From contig NZ_CP099997.1 of assembly GCF_024138145.1 (NCBI RefSeq), forward strand, positions 186,001 through 250,000: a DNA stretch of 64,000 nucleotides, in the 5' to 3' direction. Below the pieces are notes generated by a model that saw only the letters and a program-made list of their open reading frames with translations, made no database searches and was not told the DNA's origin. Positions 12,530 through 18,977 of this stretch are shown here, one piece after another. Each line of letters begins with the position of its first letter. Position 1 is the stretch's first letter. A program made the position numbers and the translations under genes. The DNA comes from Natronosalvus halobius (GTDB lineage Archaea > Halobacteriota > Halobacteria > Halobacteriales > Natrialbaceae).

Positions 12530-13845
12530 ATGTACGTCCACCGCACATATCGGGCGAAAATCCGCAACCACTCACCAGTGGAGCGGATGCTCGACCTGCA
12601 CGCATGGAGTGCATCGAAACCGTGGAACGTTGCGAACCATCACTCCCGGCAAGTGTGGGAGGAAACTGGCGAGATTCCCGACGATTCGGACTTGAAGCGC
12701 GAGTTGAAAGGTCACACCAAATACAAGGGACTGCACAGCCAGTCCAGTCAGCGCGTTCTGGAGGAACTCGCTGAAGCCTTCAACTCGTGGTATGGCAAAC
12801 GCAAGAACGACTCTCGTGCGAATCCGCCCGGCTACCGCAAGAAAAACTACTACGACGACAACGACAACCGCGTCCACGAAGAACACCCGCGTTCCACCGT
12901 GACGTGGAAGCAGAAAGGCATCCGTCACGACTCGAAACACAATCGCGTCCGCCTCTCGAAGGGCGCGAACCACAAAACCACCCGCGAGACTGGGACTACA
13001 TCCTCGTCGAGTACGAGACTCGTCCCGAGGTCACGGTTGAAAACCTGCAACAAGTCAGGGCCGTCTACAGCAAGTCGAAACAGCGGTGGGAACTCCACCT
13101 TGTCTGCAAACACGAAGTGGAGACACCCGACGCACCCGGCACCGAGACGGCGGGCATCGACCTCGGCATCTGCAACTTCGCCGCCGTCGCATACAGCACC
13201 GAGGAATCCGACCTCTATCCCGGCAACCGCTTGAAGCAAGACGGGTACTACTTCCCGAAAGAAATCGCCAAGTGCGACGACTCGGGCGGTAAAGAAGCTA
13301 CTCGTCTGCACGCGAAGTGGTCGGAGCGCCGCACCCACTTCTTCCACAGTCTCGCCAAACACATCGTCGAACGGTGTATTGAGAGAGGAGTGGGGCGCAT
13401 CAACATCGGTAAACTCAACGGTATTCGAGAGGACGAGAACGGTGAGTCGAAAAGCTGGGGTCGGCACGGCAACCTTGACTTGCACGGGTGGGCGTTCGAC
13501 CGCTTCACGAAGATACTCACTTACAAAGCGAAAGTCGAGGGCATCGAGGTCGTAGAAGTATCCGAACGCGACACGAGCAAGACGTGTTGCGTATGCGGCA
13601 GGAAAGTCGATAGTCAGCGCGTTGAACGCGGCCTGTACGTGTGCGACGAACACGATGATGCGTTCAACGCCGACGTGAATGGGGCGGAGAATATCCGTCT
13701 CGACATTAATCAAAGTAACTCCGAGTCTTCGGCCAGTTTGGACGAGGATAGGAGTACCGGCTGGTTGGCACAGCCCGGAGTCTACCTTCACGACTTGACA
13801 CGCGGATTCTTACCGCGTGACCAAGTGGTAGACTGCAAACCATAA
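12530..13845 (+). pseudogene. tnpB: IS1341-type transposase TnpB, frameshifted
   Basis: Two overlapping frames together give a full-length TnpB of about 438 residues. The first (from MYVHRTYRAKIRNHSPVE at 12530) runs to about RLSKGANHK; the second picks up at PRDWDYILVEYETRPEVTVE. The switch is near 12965-12985 and fits loss of one base. The RuvC-like nuclease begins at GIDLGICNFAAVAY and ends at NADVNGAENI; the zinc knuckle has CCVC but its second pair reads CDEH, where CXXC is usual. The C-terminus GWLAQPGVYLHD is typical of haloarchaeal IS1341 proteins. A programmed frameshift is possible, but a mutation is simpler. Confidence 0.85.
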
Positions 13846-14638: not shown

Positions 14639-15736
14639 TTATTCGACGCGATCGCGCGCCGCCGCCACGACCAGCGGCAGCGTAATGGTCGCGTCAGCGT
14701 ACACCGACACATTTTGAGCCTCTGGCTCGAGTTTCCCCCACGACCTGGCTTCGTCGAGGGTCGCCCCGGAGAGTCCGCCGGTCTGGGGCGGGTCCATCGT
14801 CAGTTGAACGGCGTAGTCGTAGGCTCGCGGGGTGACCAGCATCGTCTGGAGGGTGAAGTTCTTCGGCACCCCGCCACCGACGACGAACGCGCCGGCCTCG
14901 TCCGCCTCGAACGCGAGGTCCGTCAGGCCGGTCATGTCCCCCAGCGCGTCGAGTGAGAAGGCAGTCGTCTGGGAGTACATCCAGGCCTGGAGTCCCAGCA
15001 CCGAATCCTGGACCGCGGGACAGTAGATCGGTACGTCGTTCTCGTAGGCCGCCGCCGCGAGACCGGGATCCTCCTCGACGCCGTCTCGCTCGTTCACGTC
15101 CGCGTTCGCCCGACCGAGTTCGCGGGTCAGCCGTTCGATCGAGACCGACCCTTCGTCTTCGCACTCGGACTCGAGAACGGGAAAGACCTCTTCGCGGAGG
15201 TGGCTCTCGAACTCCGCGAAGTGTTCCTGGGGGAGGTAGACGTTGTAGATTCGGTCGACACCCTCCTCCCGAAGGCTTTCGTCGTGTTCGCGTTCGGTCT
15301 TGCCCTCCGTGTGGACGGCACCGTGATGGTGTTTGCCGCCGATGGCCTCGATCGAATCGTGGGTGAGGTTTGCCCCGGTCGTCACCAGGGCGTCGACGTA
15401 CCCGTCGCGAACGAGGTCAGAGACGATTTTGCGCATCCCTGTCGGAACCATCGCGCCCGCGAGGCCGAAGAAGACGGTGACGTCGTCGTCGAACATGGCG
15501 CTCGTGACGTCGATTGCCTCGTGGAGGTTCGCCGCACCGACGCCCGCGCGCCCGTACTGGCTCGCGAGGTCGTCGACGGACATCCCGGAACGGACTTCGG
15601 CGTGGCCGACGGGGTCGTGGGCGAATGTCTCTCGTTCGGGTTCGTGGTAGTCGGCCTCGTGTTCCGCGTCACGACCGTCGTGATCGTGACCATGGTCGTG
15701 ACCGTGATCGTGGTCGGGGGCCTCGTCGCCAGTCAT
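14639..15736 (-). CDS. dys: Deoxyhypusine synthase with His-rich N-terminus
   Basis: A 365-residue enzyme that transfers the aminobutyl group of spermidine (or agmatine in some archaea) to a lysine of translation factor aIF5A. Conserved elements include FFGLAGAMVPTGMRKIVSDL, TTGANLTHDSIEA, CPAVQDSVLG and GGGVPKNF, whose Lys carries the covalent intermediate. Start is the ATG at 15736 (MTGDEAPDH); an upstream in-frame codon at 15805 lies before family homology. Residues 8-35 form an unusual DHDHGHDHGHDHD stretch ahead of the core, possibly metal-chelating. Monocistronic. Confidence 0.95.
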   Translation of the reverse strand: MTGDEAPDHDHGHDHGHDHDGRDAEHEADYHEPERETFAHDPVGHAEVRSGMSVDDLASQYGRAGVGAANLHEAIDVTSAMFDDDVTVFFGLAGAMVPTGMRKIVSDLVRDGYVDALVTTGANLTHDSIEAIGGKHHHGAVHTEGKTEREHDESLREEGVDRIYNVYLPQEHFAEFESHLREEVFPVLESECEDEGSVSIERLTRELGRANADVNERDGVEEDPGLAAAAYENDVPIYCPAVQDSVLGLQAWMYSQTTAFSLDALGDMTGLTDLAFEADEAGAFVVGGGVPKNFTLQTMLVTPRAYDYAVQLTMDPPQTGGLSGATLDEARSWGKLEPEAQNVSVYADATITLPLVVAAARDRVE

Positions 15737-15954: not shown

Positions 15955-17634
15955 TCAGTCGTCGTACTCCTCACACAGCGTGTCGGTATCGGCGTCGGCC
16001 TCGTCGATCTTCTTGTTGTTGAAGTAGAGGTTGACCATCGCCTTCCCCTTCTTGTCGAGGTCGACCCAGAAGTAGTGGGTCTCGCCGACGTCGAGTTTGA
16101 TCGTGTCGGCTTCCTTGGTGTAGGCGCTCTTCCAGGTTACCCGGACCTTGTAGTCGTAGCAGTTGTGGATAGCGAACCTGGCCTTCCCTGGCTTCTTGCC
16201 CTTTCCGGGCCGATAGCAGAGCCCGTCGAGGTCGATGGCCTCTTTGGGGTTTTCGGGGCCACAGACCTTCTCAGCGACCACGTCGGTGTCGAGTTCCTCG
16301 CCGAGGTACGAGAGGGTCACGTCGTCGTCATCGTCGTCGATGTCGACCCAGAAATCCAACGAGTCCATCGCGGGGACGTAACCGGAGCCGTCGTACCCGC
16401 AGTCGTCATCGTCATCGTCGTCGACCGACCAGGACACGGGCACCGTCTGCTGGTTGTAGTTGAACACGCGGAAGCGTGCACGGCCGTTCTCGTGGCAGAC
16501 CGCCCGAAACCGGATCTTGTGCGGGTTCGGCGTGCAAAGTTCGTCGGTGTTGGCATCGGCCTCGTCGACCTGCTCGTCGTCGTAGAGCAGTTTGACGTGG
16601 GCTTTTCCCTTCTTGTCGAGGTCGGCCCAGAAGCACCGCTTGCCGCGTGCAGGGATCGTCAGGAGGCCCGACTGGTGCATGTAGGTGCTGCGCCAGACGA
16701 CCTCGACGTCCTCGTAGAACTCGTTGTGGACGCAGAACTTCGCCATTCCGGGGAAGTGGTCGCCCTTCTTCTTTTTCTTCCCTTTCGAGCCGTCATCGAC
16801 GTCGCCGATCGTGAACGCGCTCACCGACGACTCCTCGTCGTTCAGCGTGAACCGCGCGGTGTAGACGCCCGCTTCGGCCGGGTTCTTGACGTCGTCGAGG
16901 CAGACCCGAATTTCGTCGCCCTCCTCGAGGTCGTAGCTGCCGCCGAAGGTGAGCGTGAGCGTCTGGCCGTCGTCGTCATCGTCGACCTCGTCCAGGTCGT
17001 CGGTCACGTCGTCACCATTGAGCTCGACCGACACGTCCTCGTCGCCAACGTTCGATATGTCGACGCCGCTTCCACAGAAGTCGGCCTCGATCTCGTTCAG
17101 CGAGTTCCCGTCGGCGTCGTCCCCGACCGTGAGCGTGAAGCAGTACGTCGCGTCGTCGCAGGTGCCGTCGGGGTCGACCGAGACGTCGTTCTCGCCGTTG
17201 TAGACACGCTCGTCGATGTAACACGCGGGCTCGAGGTCGATCGCTTCCTTCGGATCTTCGGGCGCGCACACCTTCTGGTCGTTAGCGTGTTTGACGTCGA
17301 TCTGCTCGCCGTCGTAGAAGAGCCTGACTGTCGCGTCGCCGTGGTCGGCGTCGACCCAGAAGTACGCCGAGTCCTTGCCGGACACTTTGAGCGAGCCGGA
17401 CTGGTCGGTTCCGTAGACGTCCCAGGTGACTTTCACCGTCTTCTTGTTGTGGTTGTCGACGCGGAACTTCGATCGGTCTTCCTCGTAGCAACTGGCCACG
17501 AGCCTGATGTTGTCGGCCATCCCTTCGCCCGCGCTCACGGTTCCGGTGGCGAAGCCGGTGCCACCGAGGAGCGCGCCGGAGGCGGCGATTCGTTTGAGGC
17601 TGTCCCGTCTCGTGATGGATCGTTCGTCTGTCAT
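15955..17634 (-). CDS. Secreted acidic protein with four repeats of an FW(V/A)D domain
   Basis: A 559-residue Tat substrate (ITRRDSLKRIAASGALLGG, cleavage likely near VSA-GE). The mature part contains four copies of a domain of about 70 residues (56-123, 297-368, 385-458, 483-554). Each starts with a F.V.N strand, then V.VTW, an aromatic FW[VA]D[AIL]D motif, a strand ending in [VA]..LYY-type residues, and a terminal Cys. Copies 1 and 3 share the linker ENPKEAIDL/EDPKEAIDL and a following C-Y. Between copies 1 and 2 is a different beta domain (about 160-278) with a poly-Asp loop. I do not recognise the repeat; a calcium- or ligand-binding cell-surface beta-sandwich is a guess. No membrane anchor or PGF-type sorting signal is seen. 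Confidence 0.85.
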   Translation of the reverse strand: MTDERSITRRDSLKRIAASGALLGGTGFATGTVSAGEGMADNIRLVASCYEEDRSKFRVDNHNKKTVKVTWDVYGTDQSGSLKVSGKDSAYFWVDADHGDATVRLFYDGEQIDVKHANDQKVCAPEDPKEAIDLEPACYIDERVYNGENDVSVDPDGTCDDATYCFTLTVGDDADGNSLNEIEADFCGSGVDISNVGDEDVSVELNGDDVTDDLDEVDDDDDGQTLTLTFGGSYDLEEGDEIRVCLDDVKNPAEAGVYTARFTLNDEESSVSAFTIGDVDDGSKGKKKKKGDHFPGMAKFCVHNEFYEDVEVVWRSTYMHQSGLLTIPARGKRCFWADLDKKGKAHVKLLYDDEQVDEADANTDELCTPNPHKIRFRAVCHENGRARFRVFNYNQQTVPVSWSVDDDDDDDCGYDGSGYVPAMDSLDFWVDIDDDDDDVTLSYLGEELDTDVVAEKVCGPENPKEAIDLDGLCYRPGKGKKPGKARFAIHNCYDYKVRVTWKSAYTKEADTIKLDVGETHYFWVDLDKKGKAMVNLYFNNKKIDEADADTDTLCEEYDD

Positions 17635-18091
17635 CGTAGTCTCCCGGGGGATCGCCCCCAGAGTGAGTACACCTCCACGAGATTGACAGTTTGTAATCGA
17701 TGAACTACCGATTTTCACGAGGTTCATTCGGAGCGAACCGTCTCGCACGCGAGATTGCCACCCTCGCTGACCGAACGGAGATGTGAGAACCGCTCGAGTA
17801 ACAGGTCCCAAACCGAACTCCATCACCGATCAGCCGAGTGACAGGCCCCGTATCCGGTCAGCCAACTCCTCGCCTCGCTTCCCGGGTAGCGACCCCCTTC
17901 ACCGGAGACTGGTCGCCGTTCGAAGGAGTAGGAGGGAATTAACGGGCCCGAGAACCTGTCGTGTGGGGCCGTCGCCCCCTCGAGTCGATGTCGAGTGCCG
18001 GAACAGCGACGGCAGAAACGAACCGAAATTCGATGCAATGGTTGGCGAGCTAATTGGTCGTCGCGGGCGCGCTCGTCGCTGCCTCACCTGC
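17635..18091. other. Gene-free intergenic region
   Basis: About 460 bp between two minus-strand genes. I see no gene, repeat or convincing stem-loop. It should hold the promoter of the secreted repeat protein near 17650-17720. Confidence 0.45.
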
Positions 18092-18859
18092 TCACAGCCC
18101 AGTCGGCGCCTCCAGGAAGGTCGTCTCGAGGCCCCACTCCTCGACCAGTTCCTGCAACGACCGGACGCCGAACGTCTCGGTGGCGTAGTGTCCAGCCAGG
18201 ACGACGTGTACTCCCGCTTCCTTCGCCTCGTGGTAGACCTGCTGTTTCCCTTCGCCGGTGACGAGTGCGTCGGCGCCGGCATCGACAGCCTCCTCGAGCC
18301 AGTCGACGCCGGATCCGGTGACGATGGCGACGTTCTCGATTTCGTCGGGACCAAATTCGAGAAGTTGTACCGGCTGTCCGCCGGTCTCGAGGGCCGACTC
18401 GAGCGTCCCTCGGAGCTCCTCTGGCGCGTACGACTCGGCCGCGCGCCCTCGCTGGCCGATGTACTCCGGCCCGTATGCGCCGAACGGTCGGCACTCCTCG
18501 AGGTCGAGCACGTCGGCCACGCCGGCGGCGTTCCCCAGTTCCTGGTGGCCGTCCAGGGGGAGGTGGGAGACGTAGAGCGCCAGATCGTGCTCGATCAGGG
18601 ACTCGAGGCGGTCGTAGGTCCGTCCGGTGACGCGCTCGAACCCGCCCCAGGAGAGACCGTGGTGAGTGACGAGTACGTCCGCGCCCGCGTCTGCGGCAGC
18701 GTCGATCGTCTCTCGAGCGGCGTCGACGGCGAAGGCGACGCGCTCGACCGTCTGTTCCTCGGGGCCGACCTGGAGGCCGTTTGCGCTGGCGTCCAGGTCG
18801 GCGAAGTCCGCGGTTCTGAGTTCCGCGTCGAAGCGGTCGACGAGCGTGGTGAGGTCCAT
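18092..18859 (-). CDS. Nif3-like dinuclear metal centre protein
   Basis: A 255-residue member of the NIF3/YbgI family, toroidal hexamers with two metal ions per subunit. The metal-binding signatures are visible: VLVTHHGLSWGG (His pair near residue 65) and VLAGHYATETFGVRSL near the C-terminus, with GEGKQQVYHEA upstream of it. The start at 18859 (MDLTTLVDRFDAEL) matches the family N-terminus. The biochemical role of archaeal members is unsettled (GTP cyclohydrolase-like in older annotation). Confidence 0.93.
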   Translation of the reverse strand: MDLTTLVDRFDAELRTADFADLDASANGLQVGPEEQTVERVAFAVDAARETIDAAADAGADVLVTHHGLSWGGFERVTGRTYDRLESLIEHDLALYVSHLPLDGHQELGNAAGVADVLDLEECRPFGAYGPEYIGQRGRAAESYAPEELRGTLESALETGGQPVQLLEFGPDEIENVAIVTGSGVDWLEEAVDAGADALVTGEGKQQVYHEAKEAGVHVVLAGHYATETFGVRSLQELVEEWGLETTFLEAPTGL

Positions 18860-18977
18860 GCTCGCAGGTTCGTCGGGAGGGGTGTTGAGTCGGACGGTTC
18901 GGACTCGACGTCGATCAATGCTCGTCGCCAATCGACGCTCGACGCATCTTCAGATAGCAGCAGAAACGGGACGATAC

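Follow-up and report, generated by a model that had tools for sequence, protein, structure and literature searches.

Immunoglobulin (Ig), fibronectin type III (Fn3) and complement MG domains are seven-strand sandwiches of ~85 residues that occur in extracellular tandem arrays, and the classical Ig disulfide pairs strands B and F. Bacterial Ig-like domains are described by the Pfam families Big_4 and Big_2, and haloarchaeal surface glycoproteins can carry an N-terminal domain that is DUF2808-like. The majority of haloarchaeal transcripts are leaderless. In Haloferax, a 5′-UTR stem-loop in the hp transcript governs translation by growth phase (PMC2636863), and Shine-Dalgarno pairing is not used (PMC3986360).

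The gene described here lies in a 64,000-nucleotide stretch of Natronosalvus halobius DNA (hereafter, the window), where its open reading frame spans exactly 15955..17634 on the minus strand and encodes a product of 559 residues with four Ig-like units. Full-length identity to same-genus orthologues is 62–97%. With moderate confidence, we take the product to be soluble and to act in a structural or adhesive capacity: a tandem array of disulfide-clamped Ig-like modules behind a Tat signal, expressed from a gene that has a promoter element and a leader hairpin to itself.

Repeat units, inserted domain and predicted fold

Residues 1–35 (17530..17634, minus strand) read by eye as a twin-arginine (Tat) signal peptide, SITRRDSLKRIAASGALLGG...VSA, in which SITRRDSLKR (TRRDSLKR) is followed by a hydrophobic stretch and ATGTVSA, with putative cleavage after VSA. 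The NCBIfam TAT model gave 11.2 bits on the window protein, below its cut-off of 16.7. Homologues carry the same signal type and some relatives have a lipobox-like signal. Neither a hydrophobic C-terminal anchor nor a PGF-CTERM was visible by eye in the 559-residue protein. The first-pass annotation had likewise predicted Tat export with no visible anchor. Because none is visible, attachment to the cell surface is an assumption on our part.

The remainder of the protein consists of unit 1 (residues 41–125; 17260..17514), an inserted β domain (residues 137–278; 16801..17226), unit 2 (residues 292–370; 16525..16761), unit 3 (residues 374–461; 16252..16515) and unit 4 (residues 467–555; 15970..16236), all on the minus strand and with approximate boundaries. 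All six unit pairs align better than any of 1000 shuffles (z 5.6 to 30), and each unit matches the family profile. The FW[VA]D motif is found at residues 92, 335, 428 and 522 of units 1–4, respectively, and the terminal cysteine at residues 123, 367, 458 and 554. The fourfold repeat and the motif positions are thus as first described, while the unit length is 79–89 residues rather than the ~70 initially given. The poly-Asp runs that had been assigned to the added β domain are indeed present in it, but they also occur in two loops of unit 3.

Searches of Pfam and NCBIfam with the whole protein returned no family above cut-off, and in a scan of 25 units from many species against the same libraries the best E value was 0.0037, with all matches below the curated cut-off. 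A PDB sequence search with the whole protein and with the units gave no convincing match. Big_4 and Big_2 resemble the units in general architecture, and a few units score weakly against them (best E 0.0086), but the units miss the curated cut-offs; Big_4 on unit 1 reached 14.3 bits versus a cut-off of 22.1. The original view of the domain as unrecognised is therefore borne out, as Pfam, NCBIfam and PDB sequences hold no strong profile match to it.

AlphaFold2, supplied with an alignment of six units, predicted seven strands with high confidence (pLDDT 93.4, pTM 0.83). This β-sandwich of about seven strands falls in the Ig-like class by strand count rather than by strand topology. Foldseek returned many Ig, Fn3 and complement-MG-type matches with TM scores of ~0.5–0.65. 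As their E values were weak (best 2e-3), we assign the fold no more precisely than to the Ig-like class. A viral fold library gave weak matches only (best E 9e-4). The structure prediction of a unit proposed at the outset thus yields a confident predicted sandwich of a familiar kind; of the suggested new module, the sequence family is new and the fold is the common Ig-like one. The unit is a new sequence family within a common fold class. Compared to Ig, Fn3 and MG domains, the units are similar in strand number, length and tandem arrangement, but they lack a sequence-family match above cut-off, have so far been found only in haloarchaea and possess a possible disulfide that runs from the end of strand A to the C-terminus instead of the B–F pair of classical Ig domains.

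The inserted β domain has copies in other haloarchaeal proteins. A second protein encoded by this genome has one, and a relative's surface glycoprotein bearing the haloarchaeal signal (halo_sig_pep) has a more distant one, with 33% identity, at its N-terminus. The insert is therefore similar to the DUF2808-like surface domain, but here it is inserted in a Tat-type protein rather than an S-layer protein, and it falls short of the DUF2808 cut-off (a weak 19.3 bits on the window protein versus 25.3). A search of the PDB with the insert profile found nothing, and the model from its single sequence was poor (pLDDT 60) and unfit for a fold search.

Conserved positions, cysteines and acidic loops

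Conservation was computed from a non-redundant set of 64 units and fragments. The Asn of FxVxN is conserved at 89% and the F and V of the FWV strand at 80% each; the other strong positions are hydrophobic core residues, glycines and two cysteines. By contrast, the FWVD Asp is conserved in only 32% of units. These values bear on the proposal, made in the first-pass annotation, that the units are calcium- or polymer-binding modules whose FW(V/A)D motif and poly-Asp runs provide the ligand contacts. Such contacts would fit the acidic loops of the window protein, and fusions of units to ice-binding-like and β-helix regions in relatives suggest extracellular polymer or surface contact. However, the conserved positions look structural, and the acidic loops differ in length and sequence from species to species, with different acidic runs in each. 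Acidic runs are ordinary in halophiles. The conserved acidic ligand residues of a calcium module were not found, and the poor conservation of the FWVD Asp leaves a calcium site unsupported. We therefore regard a ligand-binding module of this type as unlikely; as far as the sequences go, the units may bind a polymer or a surface. Neither an enzymatic role nor one in calcium sensing is likely for the protein.

The cysteines behave differently from the FWVD Asp. Among units in which both positions are readable, the first and last cysteines are both present in 37, each is never found alone (0 and 0) and both are absent in 7 (Fisher p 2.6e-8). Two further cysteines, on strands B and E, likewise show a tendency to co-occur (4/1/3/48 in the same order, p 4.5e-4). 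Because the sequences share kinship, the counts are not independent and both p-values are lower than the number of separate events would justify. That the terminal cysteines are gained and lost together suggests a disulfide clamp within the unit; in most modules, a disulfide from the end of the first strand to the C-terminus probably closes the sandwich. Unit 2 of the window protein lacks the first cysteine and has the second pair (residues 301 and 334). The C–D loop, which carries a poly-Asp run in unit 3, accommodates insertions of 60–70 residues in relatives.

The structural or adhesive reading can be drawn from these features as follows. Four Ig-like β-sandwich modules and one β domain of surface-protein type would be joined in a soluble Tat-signal protein, and the modules would most likely form a rod that serves as a structural or adhesive part outside the cell, in the surface layer, in a matrix or in contact with a polymer. 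The variable acidic loops would face the brine.

Distribution, domain partners and genomic position

The unit profile matches 55 of 125 genomes in the window's family, representing 17 of its 29 genera, and 60 of 392 genomes of the order. In a phylum-wide sample there were matches in 13 of 393 genomes, every one from the same order. The weakest of the profile matches have E values near 1e-5 and many span part of a unit, so they should be viewed with caution. A scan of genome contigs yielded one relative only. A tblastn search of plasmids and phages with unit 1 gave chance-level matches only, and a bacterial look-alike consensus run against plasmids found nothing and revealed no bacterial relative.

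Relatives hold one to four units each, and in some of them the units are joined to an ice-binding-like domain (E 1e-68), a NosD/β-helix-like region or Fn3-like domains. The first of these partners is found in a lipobox-bearing haloarchaeal protein (L055:1-1680), which combines the ice-binding-like domain (Pfam PF11999, E 1e-68) with one unit. The varied partners and unit number are what would be expected of an accessory extracellular module. These fusions also raise the idea that the Ig-like units are only spacers, passive linkers that hold other extracellular domains off the cell. Yet units make up most of the window protein and its nearest relatives, in which we recognised no further functional domain that could be held off in this way, making a pure spacer role improbable. 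Many relatives (L004, L012, L016, L020-L026 and L042) have, ahead of their units, another domain without a name, which reads approximately IRTYNAxxxRIENVxxTVTxxxL...YxFNVYQFYDRPxxxGDKILxVxxxGxxxxNPNxC; it is not present in the window protein.

The gene sits between a deoxyhypusine synthase gene (14639-15730) and a NIF3-family gene (~18092-18865). Among 13 homologous regions, the NIF3 neighbour is found in nine and deoxyhypusine synthase in five of them, and the gene adjoins NIF3 and deoxyhypusine synthase genes in several genera. No ligand, partner gene or operon pointed to a function; these neighbours are housekeeping genes. Elsewhere in the window, two overlapping frames (12530-13234 and 12787-13845) within 12530-13845 on the plus strand resemble, by eye, a single frameshifted TnpB gene of the IS200/IS605 type.

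Across genera, the NIF3 and deoxyhypusine synthase neighbours are 71–86% identical to those of the window, whereas the units of homologues are 24–76% identical to window unit 1, indicating a gene of stable position whose protein diverges rapidly. Combined with the maintained promoter and the tandem copies of the gene in two species, this contrast is also what might be anticipated for a protein secreted as an antagonist or decoy and subject to diversifying selection, such as a halocin-like factor or a virus-receptor decoy. But neither an immunity gene nor a processing site was seen, and surface proteins commonly diverge fast too. We consider an antagonist or decoy distinctly improbable on the sequences at hand.

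The upstream element and leader hairpin

The 5′ region of the gene, which falls outside the coordinates first annotated, contains a nearly invariant 19-base element, GTAGTTCAYYGATTACAAA, located ~55–75 bases 5′ of the start codon. In the window it lies at 17690..17708 on the minus strand (GTAGTTCATCGATTACAAA), the only exact copy in the genome, and it is conserved before homologues. Allowing at most one mismatch, 27 matches were found in the 125 family genomes and all 27 precede homologues, 20 of them confirmed by a profile match on the downstream ORF and seven by coordinates; one of the 27, in genome G082, lies ~2.4 kb from its units. At that locus (G082:C1:159209-162389; L019, L086) the homologue's promoter and Tat signal lie apart from the Ig-like units, as though something had inserted between them. 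The best upstream 19-mer differs by a mean of 2.4 bases between nine regions, versus 7.1 for NIF3 and 7.7 for shuffled sequences; the deoxyhypusine synthase control gave 4.2 bases from fewer regions.

The element is found ~25 bases ahead of a conserved TACTC and, given this spacing, may include a TATA-like box. It is probably a promoter, composed of a TATA-like part and a regulator site. A wider regulon marked by the element was considered and rejected, since the window's genome has a single exact copy and every close copy stands before a member of the family. A variant with two mismatches, GTAGTCGACYGATTACAAA, occurs in seven genomes of one genus (L077-L083, around position 1501), and ~40 bases after it comes a conserved stretch that resembles a tRNA, GGGTCGCTCAGCGG...GAGCACC...TTCAAATCCCACC. 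This stretch received no call from ARAGORN (bacterial code), nor, for three of the seven, from Rfam; it is possibly an intron-bearing tRNA.

Between TACTC and the start codon, a GC-rich hairpin is predicted in the homologous leaders examined. In the window it corresponds to CTCTGGGGGCGATCCCCCGGGAG at 17641..17663 on the minus strand, directly before the start codon, and the pairing often involves CUC and the GGGAG ahead of AUG. In a 16-leader alignment, 93% of pair cells are standard and changes on both sides occur in 10 cells versus 3.5 expected, a value that 0 of 500 shuffles attained, whereas slid controls drop to 19–56% pairing; as this alignment also yielded the structure itself, these figures lean in its favour. 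The leaders thus display the conserved structure with compensatory changes that would be expected of a regulated 5′-UTR stem-loop, and no Rfam family matches the hairpin. The element and hairpin were located together at L004, L012, L016, L020-L026, L042, L043, L052, L065-L076 and L084-L096, as well as at 17641-17708 (minus strand) in the window.

The hairpin resembles that of the Haloferax hp transcript (PMC2636863) in being a short leader structure of a haloarchaeal gene; it differs in that it appears to covary across genera and to be tied to one gene family. A dedicated upstream element and leader hairpin would control expression, and the hairpin may keep translation low until it is opened by a signal. 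Since Haloferax does not use Shine-Dalgarno pairing (PMC3986360), the hairpin may act otherwise than by hiding GGGAG.

A further reading, which is conceivable but which we hold as rather doubtful, is that this fast-diversifying, disulfide-clamped secreted Ig-like protein, with its fixed place and own promoter and hairpin, forms a gene-specific regulatory unit and has a role in recognition. If so, the regulatory unit would answer an extracellular or growth-phase signal, and the protein would recognise kin, a surface or a virus. The archaeal secretome is poorly annotated, and the units bring to it an Ig-like domain family that has no name yet; one profile could name dozens of hypothetical proteins. 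The contrast between a fast-drifting protein sequence and a scarcely changing 5′ region is unusual, and it makes the gene a clear-cut case in which to test whether a promoter and a leader hairpin can be dedicated to the control of a single haloarchaeal gene.
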